From an uncultured Clostridia bacterium (GTDB lineage: Bacteria > Bacillota > Clostridia > Christensenellales > Borkfalkiaceae), in NCBI GenBank assembly GCA_947624005.1, contig CANQHV010000001.1:1-64000 (forward strand): DNA of 64,000 nt, read 5' to 3'. Every line of letters starts with the position of its first letter. Within the stretch, counting starts at the first letter, position 1. This document shows positions 191 through 13,484 of this stretch, piece after piece. A program made the translations under genes and the position numbers. Below the pieces are notes generated by a model. It worked only from the letters and a program-made list of their open reading frames with translations. It was not told the origin of the DNA and ran no database searches.

Positions 191-856
191 TTATATGTTG
201 GGGAGTTTTTCGGAAACTTCTCCGTCGCCGCCCGCGCGGGCGGTATCGCGCAATCTGTTATCCGCCAACCCGTTTTCCGAGAACAGAAATTTGATTATGG
301 GCAGGGAGGCAGTCATAGCGCAACCTATGGCAATATATATAAGCCCCGTAATGCACAGAACCGTACAGGATATAACCGCAAACAGCGCGTAAACCGCAAC
401 GCTCCGCTTCGCCGCGTTTTTTATTTTCAATACCGTGGACAAAAGTATATATAAGCCCGCAAGCGTAGTAAACGGCACGGCGGTGACGGGCAGAAGCCCT
501 ATCGTAACGCCGAACGATACCGATATGCATTTTCCGCCGCGGAAACGGTTGAAAATACCCGTCGCGTGCCCGAGAACGGGGGCGAACATAACAAAAGCAA
601 ACGTTATGTCGCGTGGGCTTAACAAAAGGCTCGCGATAAAAACGGGCAAAAAACCCTTTAAAATATCGAGAAAAAGGCACAGCGCGCCTATTTTTTTGCC
701 GCAGTGCTTAAACGCGTTGAACGCGCCGGGGTTGCCGTCCACGCTGATTGCGCAGACGTCCTTCCCCGTCCTCAGCTTTGGGATTGATTGCGAAAACATT
801 ACGCCGCCGAGCAGGAACCCGCCGACCGTTAAAAGAATGCGATACGGAATTTCCAT
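191..856 (-). CDS. plsY: PlsY-like glycerol-3-phosphate acyltransferase, copy 1
   Basis: PlsY enzymes are small polytopic membrane proteins that move an acyl group from acyl-phosphate to glycerol-3-phosphate, the first step of phospholipid synthesis. The 221-residue product has the family landmarks: an N-terminal membrane segment ending in SIPKLRTGKD, then GNPGAFNAF, LDILKGFLPV, and GHATGIFNRFRGGK. The start at 856 (MEIPYR) is chosen over an ATG at 880 because GGGAGA lies 4-5 nt before it and the result matches copy 2 at 8604-9272 (MEVLYW, 222 residues). Some usual PlsY residues are replaced (SVDGNPG rather than GSGNIG), so this may be a divergent clade. A five-repeat activator-like site lies upstream. 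Confidence 0.82.
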   Translation of the reverse strand: MEIPYRILLTVGGFLLGGVMFSQSIPKLRTGKDVCAISVDGNPGAFNAFKHCGKKIGALCLFLDILKGFLPVFIASLLLSPRDITFAFVMFAPVLGHATGIFNRFRGGKCISVSFGVTIGLLPVTAVPFTTLAGLYILLSTVLKIKNAAKRSVAVYALFAVISCTVLCITGLIYIAIGCAMTASLPIIKFLFSENGLADNRLRDTARAGGDGEVSEKLPNI

Positions 857-924: not shown

Positions 925-993
925 AAAATATTAATTTTACGTTAAATCTCGGTTAAATCTCGGTTAAATTAAGGTTAAAAACAGGTTAAACCG
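925..993 (-). promoter_or_regulatory. Five 11-bp direct repeats and -10 box upstream of plsY1
   Basis: On the plus strand GTTAAANNNNG occurs five times in register at 941, 952, 963, 974 and 985, exactly 11 bp apart. Read towards plsY1 this is TTTAAC every helical turn, as in PhoP/PhoB-type boxes bound by OmpR-family regulators. The nearest repeat ends 8 nt before a TATTTT -10 (925-930), and there is no good -35, as expected of an activated promoter. A second TATAAT at 903-908 is an alternative -10. Confidence 0.65.
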
Positions 994-8493: not shown

Positions 8494-8531
8494 AAAAACG
8501 ACGGAAATTTTTAAAAATTTCCGTCGTTTTT
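8494..8531 (-). terminator. Terminator of plsY2, bidirectional
   Basis: Arms 8494-8510 and 8515-8531 are perfect complements with a four-base TTAA loop, and both flanks are A/T runs. It lies between the convergent thrC and plsY2 genes. Confidence 0.8.
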
Positions 8532-8566
8532 CAAACGCTTTAAAATATATCGGGAAAGCGCGATAA
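8526..8566. repeat. 41-bp dispersed repeat, copy A
   Basis: These 41 bases are identical to 11404-11444. Copy B spans the last codons and the stop of comEC; this copy lies in the non-coding tail after plsY2. Identity stops sharply at both ends. Confidence 0.8.
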
Positions 8567-8603
8567 GGCGACAGCGGAAAATTTTTCCGCTGTGCACTTT
8601 ATG

Positions 8604-9285: not shown

Positions 9286-9456
9286 TTATTCGGGGATATA
9301 TTCCGTTACGACTGCGGCAGGCTCGCTGCCCGTCCATTCCCGAATATCCCAAGAACCTGTTACGGCGCGACCTATAAAAAGCGTTACGGCAAATATGATT
9401 GCGGTGATAACTACCGCCCAGATTGTTCCGAATATAAACCTTAAAAGACCTTTCAT
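9286..9456 (-). CDS. 56-residue single-pass membrane protein
   Basis: No family recognised. The start at 9456 (MKGLLRF) is chosen because GGAGGT sits 7 nt upstream; an in-frame ATG at 9540 would overlap the promoter. A hydrophobic helix spans about residues 8-33 (FGTIWAVVITAIIFAVTLFI), followed by a short polar tail rich in W and E. It lies just before plsY2, so it may be a partner or small regulator of that enzyme or of the adjacent sensor kinase, whose own sensing part is in the membrane. That link is inferred from position only. Confidence 0.7.
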   Translation of the reverse strand: MKGLLRFIFGTIWAVVITAIIFAVTLFIGRAVTGSWDIREWTGSEPAAVVTEYIPE

Positions 9457-9531: not shown

Positions 9532-9574
9532 AAAATACACCCGCTGTGTTAAGCGAGTGTTAATCCGATATTTA
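9532..9574 (-). promoter_or_regulatory. OmpR-type box and -10 before the small protein-plsY2 pair
   Basis: GTGTTAA at 9546 and 9557 (TTAACAC read toward the genes), with a weaker ATATTTA at 9568, are spaced 11 bp apart. Exactly 8 nt after the last TTAACAC comes TATTTT (9532-9537). The same spacing occurs at 11341-11372 and 925-993. Confidence 0.65.
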
Positions 9575-9593
9575 AATTGTATTATTTTCGCGG

Positions 9594-10652
9594 TTAACTT
9601 TTCGGCACGGTCACAATAAACTTCGACCCTTTTTGCGGAACGCTTTCCACGGAAATTTCACCTTTGATAAGATTCATTATCTCCTTTACAAGCGCAAGTC
9701 CCAAACCGTTGCCTTGGGTAGAGCGCGAAGCGTCGGCTTGATAAAATTTATCGAAGATGTGTTTTATGTCGTGTTCGTTCATTCCGCAGCCGTTATCTTC
9801 AACCGTGACGGTAATTCGGTTGTTATCTTCTTTCGCCGATATGTTTACCGTTCCTCCGTCGGGCGTAAACTTCAACGCGTTTGAAAGCAGATTGTTCCAG
9901 ACTATTTCCGTTAAGCCCTCGTCGGAGCAAATAACGGTTTCTTCCGAAAAGTCCGTGTTGATTTCTATATTTTTCGCCTCCCAGATTTGCTCGAAGCCGA
10001 CGATACAGCGGCATAACTGCTCGCTTAAATTATAATCTTTTTTGTCGACGGCGATTTTCTGATTTTCAAGGCGCGAGAGCTGTAAGATATTCATTACAAG
10101 CGAAGAAAGCTTTTTAGTCGCCTCGTTAATCTTCGCCGCATATTCTTTGCGTTCGGCTTCGTCCAATCCGTCGCTTTGCAGAATTGCCGACAGGTTCTGA
10201 ATGGCAGCAAGGGGGGTTTTCAATTCGTGCGATACGTTTGAAACAAAGTCTTTTTTCAGTATCTCCGTGCTTGCAAGCTCGGAAACCATTATGTTGAAAT
10301 CGTCAAACAAAAGCTCGAATTCGTCTTTCTTGCCGTCCTTGCACCGAGGCGGTATTTTGACGGAAAAATCACCGTCGGCGACTTTTTTCGCCGCCTCGGA
10401 TAAAATTTTCACGGGCTTCAACACCGTATTTTTGTATAAGAGAGCGGTCAACCCGACCAGCACCCCGCTCGCAACGGCGACAAACGTTACAAGCGCAAGG
10501 GTCATATAGACCCCGTTTTTTACGCCGTCGCGAGGAATCGTATAGAAGATTGCGGCATAAGAACCGCAAATCGAAAATACAATCAGAAACAAGATACAAA
10601 AAAACTTAACTTGCGTATGTTTTACCGTAACGCGCTCGTCTTTCTTCTTCAT
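9594..10652 (-). CDS. Sensor histidine kinase, intramembrane-sensing type
   Basis: The 352-residue kinase has two membrane helices (about 16-38 and 47-73) joined by only some 8 external residues, then a HAMP-like linker (74-125). A HisKA domain follows, with the phospho-acceptor His142 in SNVSHELKTPLAA. The HATPase part shows NLLSNALKFTPDGG (N box), VEDNGCGMNE (G1) and GNGLGLALV (G2). With no extracellular domain it should sense something in the membrane or through a partner. It overlaps the response regulator by 4 bp (ATGA) and forms one operon with it. No strong terminator separates it from the small protein-plsY2 genes, so read-through is possible. Confidence 0.92.
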   Translation of the reverse strand: MKKKDERVTVKHTQVKFFCILFLIVFSICGSYAAIFYTIPRDGVKNGVYMTLALVTFVAVASGVLVGLTALLYKNTVLKPVKILSEAAKKVADGDFSVKIPPRCKDGKKDEFELLFDDFNIMVSELASTEILKKDFVSNVSHELKTPLAAIQNLSAILQSDGLDEAERKEYAAKINEATKKLSSLVMNILQLSRLENQKIAVDKKDYNLSEQLCRCIVGFEQIWEAKNIEINTDFSEETVICSDEGLTEIVWNNLLSNALKFTPDGGTVNISAKEDNNRITVTVEDNGCGMNEHDIKHIFDKFYQADASRSTQGNGLGLALVKEIMNLIKGEISVESVPQKGSKFIVTVPKS

Positions 10653-11320
10653 ACGGTCACCGCCTTATACCCGAGCCCGCGTACAGTGACTATTCTGAAC
10701 CCCGTGCACCTCTCTAATTTCTGCCGCAGGTTTGTAATATGTACGTCCACGGAGCGAAGCCCGCTTTCGCTTTCATACCCGCTGAACTCGTCTAAAAGCT
10801 GCCCCCGCGTAAATGTTTTATTCGGGTATGACAGCAGTTTATAGATTATCCGAAACTCGCGCAAGGTCATAATTACGGGCTCTCCGTCGATATACGCCGT
10901 TACCGCGTCTTCGTCAAGCGTAAGATTTCCGACGGTAAGTTTTTTGCTTGCCGCAATATGCGCGCGGCGAAGAAGAGCGGATATCCGCAAAATCAATTCG
11001 TCAAAATCAATAGGTTTTACCAGATAATCGTCTATCCCGATTTTATAGCCCTTTTCTTTTGCCGTAAAGTCGTCGCGGGCGGTCATAAACAGAATGGGGA
11101 TATTTTTATCCGTTTCGCGGACGTTGCGGGCAAACTCGAATCCGTCCATTTTCGGCATCATAATATCCGAAATGATAAGGTCGTAATGTTCCTCCGACAT
11201 AAGGTCTATTGCGCTTAACCCGTCAAAACAACTTTTCACCGAATATCCGTGAACGGTCAAATGCTTGCAAACGGACATATTCAATGTTTCGTCGTCTTCT
11301 ACAACCAGAATTTTTATCAT
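10649..11320 (-). CDS. OmpR/PhoB-family response regulator
   Basis: The 223-residue regulator has a receiver domain (residues 1-120) with acidic residues DD9-10, phospho-acceptor Asp52 in LIISDIMMPKMDGFEF and the Lys of DDYLVKPIDF. A winged-helix DNA-binding domain follows (about 130-223), with TLREFRIIYKLL and RSVDVHITNLRQKLE. GGAGGAAC precedes the ATG. Its own promoter carries two TGTTAA repeats 11 bp apart, the pattern bound by this family, which suggests self-regulation. It is probably the regulator acting on both plsY promoters in this window. Confidence 0.93.
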   Translation of the reverse strand: MIKILVVEDDETLNMSVCKHLTVHGYSVKSCFDGLSAIDLMSEEHYDLIISDIMMPKMDGFEFARNVRETDKNIPILFMTARDDFTAKEKGYKIGIDDYLVKPIDFDELILRISALLRRAHIAASKKLTVGNLTLDEDAVTAYIDGEPVIMTLREFRIIYKLLSYPNKTFTRGQLLDEFSGYESESGLRSVDVHITNLRQKLERCTGFRIVTVRGLGYKAVTV

Positions 11321-11340
11321 ATGTTCCTCCGAATGCGTAT

Positions 11341-11372
11341 ATTGTACACGGTCTGTGTTAAGGGAATGTTAA
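11341..11372 (-). promoter_or_regulatory. OmpR-type box and -10 of the two-component operon
   Basis: TGTTAA at 11356 and 11367 are 11 bp apart. The proximal GTGTTAA (11355-11361) is 8 nt from the -10 TACAAT (plus-strand ATTGTA, 11341-11346). The local sequence TTAACACAG-N3-GTGTA is shared with the plsY2 promoter. Confidence 0.7.
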
Positions 11373-11403: not shown

Positions 11404-11444
11404 GTTTTTCAAACGCTTTAAAATATATCGGGAAAGCGCGATAA
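11404..11444. repeat. 41-bp dispersed repeat, copy B (end of comEC)
   Basis: Identical to 8526-8566. Here it encodes the last residues of ComEC (SRFPDIF) and runs 14 bp past the stop. Confidence 0.8.
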
Positions 11445-13484
11445 TGCGTACAACTGACGTAAATATACAAACCTCGCATCGCCGAAGTATAAGCTGTCGT
11501 TTTCACGGGCGGAAAATAGGACGGTGCGTATTGTCGTAATCTGCGGCGCCTCGACGGCGGTAAACAAAACGTCGCACACCGTATTCGGCGCGCCGCCGTC
11601 CGCGCACACCGTGAAAATGCGTTCGCCCGCGCGCACGGTAACGCAACCCGCCGAGGTAAAATCAAACGAAAATCCGCATTCCGTAAATTTGTCGGCGTAG
11701 TGCAAATTTATGTCGCTGAAAGGTTTTATGGGCAAACTTTGTTCGAATATATACACGTTTTTGCAGTACACGCCCGAATTTTTTACGGTTGCGGCAACGT
11801 TTTCGCCGCCCACAATCACCACAGCCCGAAGCCGACTGCAATAGTTCGAATACAGCGCCTCGCGCACCGCCGACGGGCTTGCGCCCTGCGTCACGACGGC
11901 GACCGCGCCGCTTTTCGATTTGAATATTACAACGCCGCCGCCGTTGCTCCCTGCCGCCGTCACGGAGTAGCCCGAAAATCCCGCGAAAGTACGCGCTACG
12001 CAGTAAAGGGCGATAAGCCCCGCGACCGCCGCGACCGCGCACAGTCGGGTTTTGCGTTTCAGGTTTATCTTGTCGGACAGAAGTATAAGTCCGACGAAAT
12101 ACAGCGGCGTGAAAAGCCCCGACCCGAACCCCGTAATAAGCGCGTTTTCGAAGCCGCACGCAAGTACGAACGAAAGCAGGGCTTCGAGTGGAAGAGCGGA
12201 AATTTTGACGAGTATTCCCGCCGCGGGTATGACCGTGGAAACGCATACGCAGGCAAATATCCCCCCGAATATTATCGAAATAACGGGTATTACTATTATG
12301 TTAAGGGCGACGCCCGCGCCGCTTAAATAGCCGAATCCCGAAAGCATTACGGGAGCCGTACCCGCCGTGGCGGACAGCGACGCGCCTACCGACGACGAAA
12401 TTTTGCGCGGCACTTTTTTAAGCGCGCGCACTATGCGCCCCGATAAAAGGGCTATTGAAAACACCGCGCTTACCGACAGTCGGAAGCCTATCGTGAAAAG
12501 GCTCAACGGCGAGAACAATACGATTATGAACACGGCGACGGCAAGCGAATTAAGCATATCGTACTTCCGCTTTGCCAAAGTCGCCGCCGCGCCGACGGCG
12601 CACATTATAAGTGCGCGCACCGAGGACAGCGTAAAGCCGCATACGCCCGAATAGAATGCCGAAAACAACAGCGCGACGACCGACGACGGTCCCTTACCCG
12701 CGCGCAGTTTGACCAAAAGCGCATACAGCGCGCCGTAAACAAGACCTATATGCAGACCCGAAACCGCGAATATATGCGCAATTCCGCCGTATCTGAACGC
12801 GGTAAGCGAGCCGTCGTCAACGCCGTTGGTATCGCCCGTCAGCATCGCGTAACAGATAGCCGCGGTATTTTCGCCGAGGTTGTCGTAAAGCGTTTCGCGC
12901 ACGCGGTCGCGTATGCTTCCGAACAGCGAAAAACCGCTCCGCGCCGAAATTTCGTCTAAGGGAGTACAACCGTATTTAATATTTTCCGCCGCGCGGTAAT
13001 TGAGTTTTCCGAACGGGAACGCGTCGTACTGTTCGAGTTTGGCGGAAAATTCCACTTTGTAGCCCGTTTTCAGATTTTCGGGCGCGTCCGCAAAATAAAC
13101 TTTGCCGTGAAGCTTTTTGCCGTCGGCTTTCACGTTTTTCAGAATAACATAGCCGCCGTAATCTGTCGCGCCCGTGTTTTCGACCTCGCCCGAAACGGCG
13201 TAAACGCCGCCCGACGTGATTTCTGCGCGCGAATAGCTTTTAAGCGTTGTAAACGAAAGCGCGGCGCCGACCGAAAAAACAGCCGCGACGGTTATGATAA
13301 TCACAGCCGCTTTTACCTTTGCGGAAATTGCCGCCGCCAAAGAAAAAACCGCAGTCGCGGGAACGACTGCGATAAGCCAAAGCGCGTTAATATTGTAAAA
13401 AGCGGCAATATACCCTGCAAAAACTCCCGCGCAGAGCGCGGCGGCAAAAAATACGGGGTATCTTAAATTAATCCGCTTTTTCAT
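11418..13484 (-). CDS. comEC: ComEC/Rec2 DNA-uptake channel protein
   Basis: ComEC forms the inner-membrane channel for single-stranded DNA during natural transformation. The 688-residue product has an N-terminal membrane pair plus a soluble part (about residues 1-200), and the competence domain with GGIAHIFAVSGLHIGLVYGAL and many membrane helices (about 210-510). The C-terminal region is where a metallo-beta-lactamase-like nuclease normally sits. That tail has no HxHxDH metal motif, so it is degenerate or replaced. The start at 13484 (MKKRINLRYP) is taken over upstream codons because a TTTACA-17-TATAAT promoter ends 6 nt before it. The gene is divergent from spoVT. Confidence 0.88.
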   Translation of the reverse strand: MKKRINLRYPVFFAAALCAGVFAGYIAAFYNINALWLIAVVPATAVFSLAAAISAKVKAAVIIITVAAVFSVGAALSFTTLKSYSRAEITSGGVYAVSGEVENTGATDYGGYVILKNVKADGKKLHGKVYFADAPENLKTGYKVEFSAKLEQYDAFPFGKLNYRAAENIKYGCTPLDEISARSGFSLFGSIRDRVRETLYDNLGENTAAICYAMLTGDTNGVDDGSLTAFRYGGIAHIFAVSGLHIGLVYGALYALLVKLRAGKGPSSVVALLFSAFYSGVCGFTLSSVRALIMCAVGAAATLAKRKYDMLNSLAVAVFIIVLFSPLSLFTIGFRLSVSAVFSIALLSGRIVRALKKVPRKISSSVGASLSATAGTAPVMLSGFGYLSGAGVALNIIVIPVISIIFGGIFACVCVSTVIPAAGILVKISALPLEALLSFVLACGFENALITGFGSGLFTPLYFVGLILLSDKINLKRKTRLCAVAAVAGLIALYCVARTFAGFSGYSVTAAGSNGGGVVIFKSKSGAVAVVTQGASPSAVREALYSNYCSRLRAVVIVGGENVAATVKNSGVYCKNVYIFEQSLPIKPFSDINLHYADKFTECGFSFDFTSAGCVTVRAGERIFTVCADGGAPNTVCDVLFTAVEAPQITTIRTVLFSARENDSLYFGDARFVYLRQLYALSRFPDIF

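Follow-up and report, generated by a model that had tools for sequence, protein, structure and literature searches.

A shared operator-like box precedes a two-component regulator and PlsY-like genes in an uncultured Clostridia bacterium

Introduction

According to the excerpts cited here, HexRK of Clostridioides difficile is a two-component system whose small regulon centres on a glycolipid operon, hexS-hexD-hexF, which includes a monogalactosyldiacylglycerol-synthase-like enzyme (PMC10128005). The locus described below is likewise clostridial; the genes that carry its DNA box are a regulator gene, a 56-aa ORF and PlsY-like genes. The extracytoplasmic domain of HexK spans about 120 residues, whereas the kinase studied here has almost no such domain; the excerpt names no PlsY-like target of HexRK, and HexR is set beside our regulator by description only (PMC10128005). 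LiaFSR/SapRS of Enterococcus faecalis likewise sense the envelope and control glycolipid and lipoteichoic-acid (LTA) remodelling; they differ in forming a network with a broad daptomycin-response regulon, which acts on LTA partly via MadEFG (PMC13123819, in the part cited). DesKR of Bacillus subtilis also pairs a kinase that lacks an extracellular sensor domain with control of a lipid enzyme, although DesK has multiple TM segments, unlike our kinase, and its target is a fatty-acid desaturase (PMC8144471, in the part cited). The excerpts of these three papers describe no box arrangement of the kind reported here, and that of PMC11898633 makes no mention of PlsY. Among the titles and opening lines of abstracts listed from open-licence papers, we found no two-component system that acts on plsY or on a PlsY-like/glycosyltransferase pair.

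In the PhoP and PmrA regulons, OmpR/PhoB-type regulators use tandem half-sites arranged as 11-bp direct repeats. The sites reported here share this half-site period with those regulons but differ in that their exact code is confined to three promoters, and the pst locus of the genome has another regulator. We analysed a stretch of 64,000 nucleotides (the window), part of contig 1 of an uncultured Clostridia genome of 1.22 Mb that is 77% complete. Through this locus, a concrete DNA code is linked with a dedicated sensor and with genes of membrane-lipid type in Clostridia that have been little studied.

Results

An OmpR/PhoB-type two-component system lies between direct repeats

The regulator and kinase genes are adjacent, with ORFs that overlap by 4 bases, and their receiver, Trans_reg_C, HisKA and HATPase_c domains all score over the Pfam cut-offs, as is characteristic of an OmpR/PhoB-type two-component system (Table 1). 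In intramembrane-sensing kinases, the extracytoplasmic loop between the two TM segments is very short. By hydropathy, the window kinase has this layout, with hydrophobic segments at residues 12-40 and 46-74, a very short connection and thus almost no outer loop, in agreement with the original prediction of a membrane-sensing kinase. Two TM segments are present in 48 of 52 kinases of relatives, and in the other four a late ORF start had been chosen.

Table 1. Positions of the two-component genes, the PlsY-like genes and the associated sites in the window.
Feature	Position	Strand	Remarks
Response regulator, 223 aa	10649..11320	-	receiver and Trans_reg_C domain
Histidine kinase, 352 aa	9594..10652	-	two TM segments with very short loop, HAMP, HisKA, HATPase_c
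56-aa ORF	9286..9456	-	one hydrophobic segment
PlsY-like 2 (plsY2), 222 aa	8604..9272	-	has a GGKC motif, and Asp where PlsY has Ser35
PlsY-like 1 (plsY1)	191..856	-	64% identical to PlsY-like 2; upstream TTG at 880 also open
Regulator promoter, TTAACA-N5-TTAACA-N9-TACAAT	11341..11372	-	reads TTAACATTCCCTTAACACAGACCGTGTACAAT on the minus strand
Second operator-like copy, before the 56-aa/plsY2 unit, TTAACA-N5-TTAACA-N9-TATTTT	9532..9563	-	reads TTAACACTCGCTTAACACAGCGGGTGTATTTT; overlaps the hairpin
Terminator-like hairpin, then T-run	9537..9560	-	stem of 9 pairs; the 45-nt stretch folds at -13.2 kcal/mol
plsY1 upstream array, five TTAAC with 11-bp period, then TATTTT	925..989	-	tandem repeat
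Direct repeat, 45 bp	8526..8570		left flank of the plsY2-regulator block
Direct repeat, 45 bp	11404..11448		right flank, 98% identical to the left; contains the end of a comEC-like ORF

No relative of the 56-aa protein was detected among the fetched loci (best other match, E 0.016). The flanking direct repeats make the plsY2-kinase-regulator block look like a cassette insertion; its G+C content of 45.5%, against 48.6% for the window, is not extreme, with 25 of 123 windows lower.

Three promoters share one box

The original prediction proposed a promoter code common to the two-component system, the 56-aa/plsY2 unit and plsY1, and that code is now supported by a genome-wide scan. In both the regulator promoter and the copy before the 56-aa/plsY2 unit, the half-sites start at an interval of 11 bp, TTAACAC is followed after 8 nt by a -10-like hexamer, and TTAACACAG-N3-GTGTA is present; 28 nt of the latter site are 82% identical to the former. 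The plsY1 promoter has the same spacing of 8 nt, to TATTTT, behind its longer array. The full pattern, TTAAC-N6-TTAA-N11-TANNNT, matched three times in the window against a shuffle mean of 0.04 (0 of 100 shuffles reached 3) and three times in the whole genome, each time at one of these genes, against one match for the backwards control. The bare pair TTAAC-N6-TTAAC is weaker, with nine exact matches in the genome (six of them at the three promoters) and three for its backwards control, and two half-sites with one mismatch occur at chance level in the window (12 vs 10.5). We set aside the exact matches at C1:163702, between genes that by eye are metK-like and radical-SAM-like, and at C2:79648 (L008:1501-1516, TTAACAAAACCTTAAC), upstream of a different winged-helix regulator, both of which lack the -10 spacing, as well as that at C6:414, inside an integrase-like ORF; we treated all of these as chance or unrelated occurrences.

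Counted from the end of each TTAACA, the distance to the -10 is 9 nt for the downstream half-site and 20 nt for the upstream one; neither corresponds to the normal -35 distance. This geometry is familiar from activator sites of OmpR/PhoB-type regulators. A sigma-70 scan called no promoter at the box sites, as expected if an activator is needed there.

The half-site also resembles the TTAACA-type Pho box, which would suit a phosphate-starvation system of the PhoPR type, with Pho boxes controlling lipid replacement. The best NCBIfam match of the kinase is indeed PnpS, at 211.7 bits against a cut-off of 400, and in the relative G298 a triple TTTACA at 11-bp spacing (L155:1500-1543) stands before a gene that by eye resembles a Na/phosphate symporter. 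We nevertheless regard this explanation as very improbable and rejected a PhoPR phosphate regulon: the system shows no linkage to pst, the pst locus on contig 2 has, by eye, its own regulator and kinase after pstB, and the exact TTAAC-N6-TTAAC pattern is not matched there.

The copy before the 56-aa/plsY2 unit also folds

The operator-like copy between the kinase gene and the 56-aa ORF coincides with a hairpin that is unusually stable for its composition (z -4.35; 1 of 200 shuffles as stable). Its 9-pair stem and T-run could mean that this element acts above all in intrinsic termination of the regulator-kinase operon and that its operator likeness is partly coincidence. plsY2 would then use another promoter, for which a sigma-70-like match (9/12) at 9509-9481, between this site and the 56-aa ORF, is a candidate, and the operators would comprise the autoregulatory site and perhaps the plsY1 array. 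This is unlikely in our view, since the regulator site, to which the element is so similar, does not itself fold (z 0.19), and the boxes at the same place in the relatives G061 and G028 form no strong hairpin (z -1.14 and 0.86). The element may serve as both terminator and promoter.

The box recurs in relatives before changing membrane genes

The repeats were found again in relatives, as the original prediction requires. In G061 (L013, a Clostridia contig), genes for the regulator, the kinase, a GT4 glycosyltransferase and a PlsY-like protein stand in a row, with one box before the regulator and another before the GT4 gene. G028, whose regulator is 71% identical, has a box before the regulator and one before the GT2 gene that follows the kinase. 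In G054, TTAAC-N6-TTAAC precedes a GT4-PlsY pair that shares no contig with the regulators of that genome; this site has a different -10 and is therefore missed by the full pattern. When regulator upstream regions were scored for TTWACA-N5-TTWACA-N9 plus a -10, 31 of 41, the window's included, beat 95% of their own shuffles and 10 had no significant box; we also inspected a more distant set of 17 regulator loci (L033-L049, with identities of about 39-47%), which is left out of this scoring.

We then counted boxes across 53 neighbourhoods with all ORFs re-annotated, accepting at least 11 of 12 half-site letters and requiring 100 bp upstream. A box was present upstream of 28 of 52 regulators, 20 of 39 copies of the small membrane protein sTM1, both GT2 genes (2/2) and the GT4 gene (1/1); none preceded the kinase (0/52), the membrane protein M219 (0/26) or the cardiolipin-synthase-like gene (0/6). 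Control genes, at least 150 aa and unmatched to references, carried a box in 6 of 345 cases, a comparison for which Fisher values are too strong because the genomes are related rather than independent. The predicted autoregulation is likely. In the survey of gene content, 4 of the 53 loci (L013, L158, L166 and L173) showed no regulator owing to ORF choice.

The box is a poor finder of the system. The original prediction had proposed to scan related genomes with it for plsY-like genes beside such a system. Over 61 relatives the full pattern gave 38 matches against 46 for the backwards control, no excess, and we dropped it for this use. A few of the 38 precede regulators of this family (in G000, the window genome, and in G028, G002 and G030). 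A stricter TTWACA version gave nine matches in 8 of 40 genomes, against two for its backwards control. None of the extra pattern matches inspected in G020, G029 and G298 lies before a recognised lipid gene, and the box is absent at several PlsY-like loci (L014, G020 and G058).

A frequent arrangement in relatives is regulator, kinase, M219 and small membrane proteins. The sTM1 protein (e.g. L092:33-389) is about 120 aa and often has its own box copy near the two-component system. The sTM1 search gave no match in the window genome, at its 77% completeness, or in G028, and we infer that in these two genomes the second box now serves other membrane genes.

Since sTM1, which has no match over the curated Pfam or NCBIfam cut-offs, is the commonest second boxed gene, the system might mainly govern small membrane proteins for envelope stress, as in a Lia- or Psp-like shield, with incidental links to lipid genes. 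It fits such a role that, of the neighbourhoods examined, those of the window and G061 are the only ones with PlsY-like genes close to the regulator. We consider it quite unlikely all the same: the two genomes lacking an sTM1 match have the second box before PlsY-like or GT2 genes, and a cardiolipin-synthase-like gene occurs in six neighbourhoods.

The PlsY-like proteins form a divergent clade, next to glycosyltransferases outside the window

Both PlsY-like proteins of the window match PF02660, with 94.2 and 80.9 bits against the TIGR00023 cut-off of 137.2, and are thus below it; the PlsY-like sequence is homologous to PlsY of PDB 5xj5 (E 1.6e-14). In the part of the structural study cited here, Ser35, Arg45, Lys104 and Asn180 of PlsY clamp the phosphate of glycerol-3-phosphate; alanine changes lower activity by more than 92%, and the change of Arg45 to Lys does so by over 90% (PMC5700162). 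Compared with the aaPlsY fragment, which does not include Asn180, all 19 members of the clade keep the His92 and Lys104 positions and all 19 have Asp in place of Ser35; Arg45 is retained in 2, and Gly105 has become Cys or Ala in 18. The clade thus shares the acyl-phosphate-site residues with PlsY but differs in the acceptor pocket, and its glycerol-3-phosphate clamp is altered; this combination suggests an acceptor other than glycerol-3-phosphate. The HRxN of the genome's canonical PlsY is, by eye, absent from both window copies.

The original prediction also placed two PlsY paralogues under a lipid-synthesis control circuit. The code does adjoin membrane- or lipid-type genes in relatives, but the paralogues are not ordinary, given the change of Ser35 to Asp throughout the clade. 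They resemble proteins of a glycolipid pathway and are unlikely to be standard glycerol-3-phosphate acyltransferases. A glycosyltransferase adjoins the PlsY-like gene at all 17 clade loci outside the window: three are GT4 and 14 are of the MGDG-synthase type, one of these on the downstream side. Five of these glycosyltransferases were scanned; the two of MGDG type had diglucosyl-diacylglycerol synthases as best match and the three GT4 had IagA/BgsA, in each case far below cut-off. Neither window copy has a glycosyltransferase neighbour, and the GT4 relative in the window genome, encoded on another contig, has no box. The distribution of the clade is patchy: members with E 1e-25 or better occur in 16 of 396 genomes from the order. 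The two named records found with the PlsY-like query are both Clostridia.

The pairs with an MGDG-synthase-type gene are at L106-L117, L014 and L018, and those scanned for a box had none. A third, canonical plsY of the genome lies at C2:32552. It follows a gene that by eye is der-like; the 180 bp read upstream of it contain no box, no exact match of the pattern falls there, and control of this gene by the box was rejected.

Discussion

On our best reading, the locus encodes a two-component system that senses the envelope, regulates itself and has exchangeable membrane or glycolipid outputs; its logic comes closest to that of HexRK-HexSDF. An intramembrane-sensing-type kinase and an OmpR/PhoB-type regulator would detect a change in the membrane or envelope, and the phosphorylated regulator would bind two TTAACA half-sites 11 bp apart, which would replace the -35 element, 9 nt upstream of the -10. 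Bound regulator would activate its own operon in a positive feedback and, in the window genome, the 56-aa/plsY2 unit and plsY1. The PlsY-like proteins could then act as divergent acyltransferases of the acyl-phosphate type in glycolipid rather than ordinary phospholipid synthesis, and the circuit would thereby shift membrane lipid composition. We lean towards this account, in which one intramembrane-sensing-type system activates its own operon, the 56-aa/plsY2 unit and plsY1 through a shared box and the PlsY-like proteins are glycolipid acyltransferases; our confidence is limited by the hairpin, which casts doubt on one of the three sites.

A bolder and more tentative extension, which we hold as a possibility short of an even chance, is that this Clostridia order contains an undescribed family of envelope-sensing two-component systems with one operator both at their own gene and at an interchangeable output, which may be a small membrane protein, a GT2 or a glycosyltransferase paired with a PlsY-like protein. 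The PlsY-like protein would then be a new acyl-phosphate-dependent acyltransferase that acylates a glycolipid or its precursor instead of glycerol-3-phosphate. The same code before different membrane genes would exemplify a regulator that keeps its operator while exchanging its targets. The PlsY-like clade, next to glycolipid-type glycosyltransferases at 17 of 17 outside loci and with its clamp altered, leads to a claim that can be tested, namely that glycolipid synthesis in bacteria includes a new acyltransferase step.

Two of the cardiolipin-synthase-like genes scored 274.5 and 275.5 bits, close to the cut-off of 290 but below it; such a gene lies in a run with the two-component system at L083, L084, L085, L086, L159 and L191.
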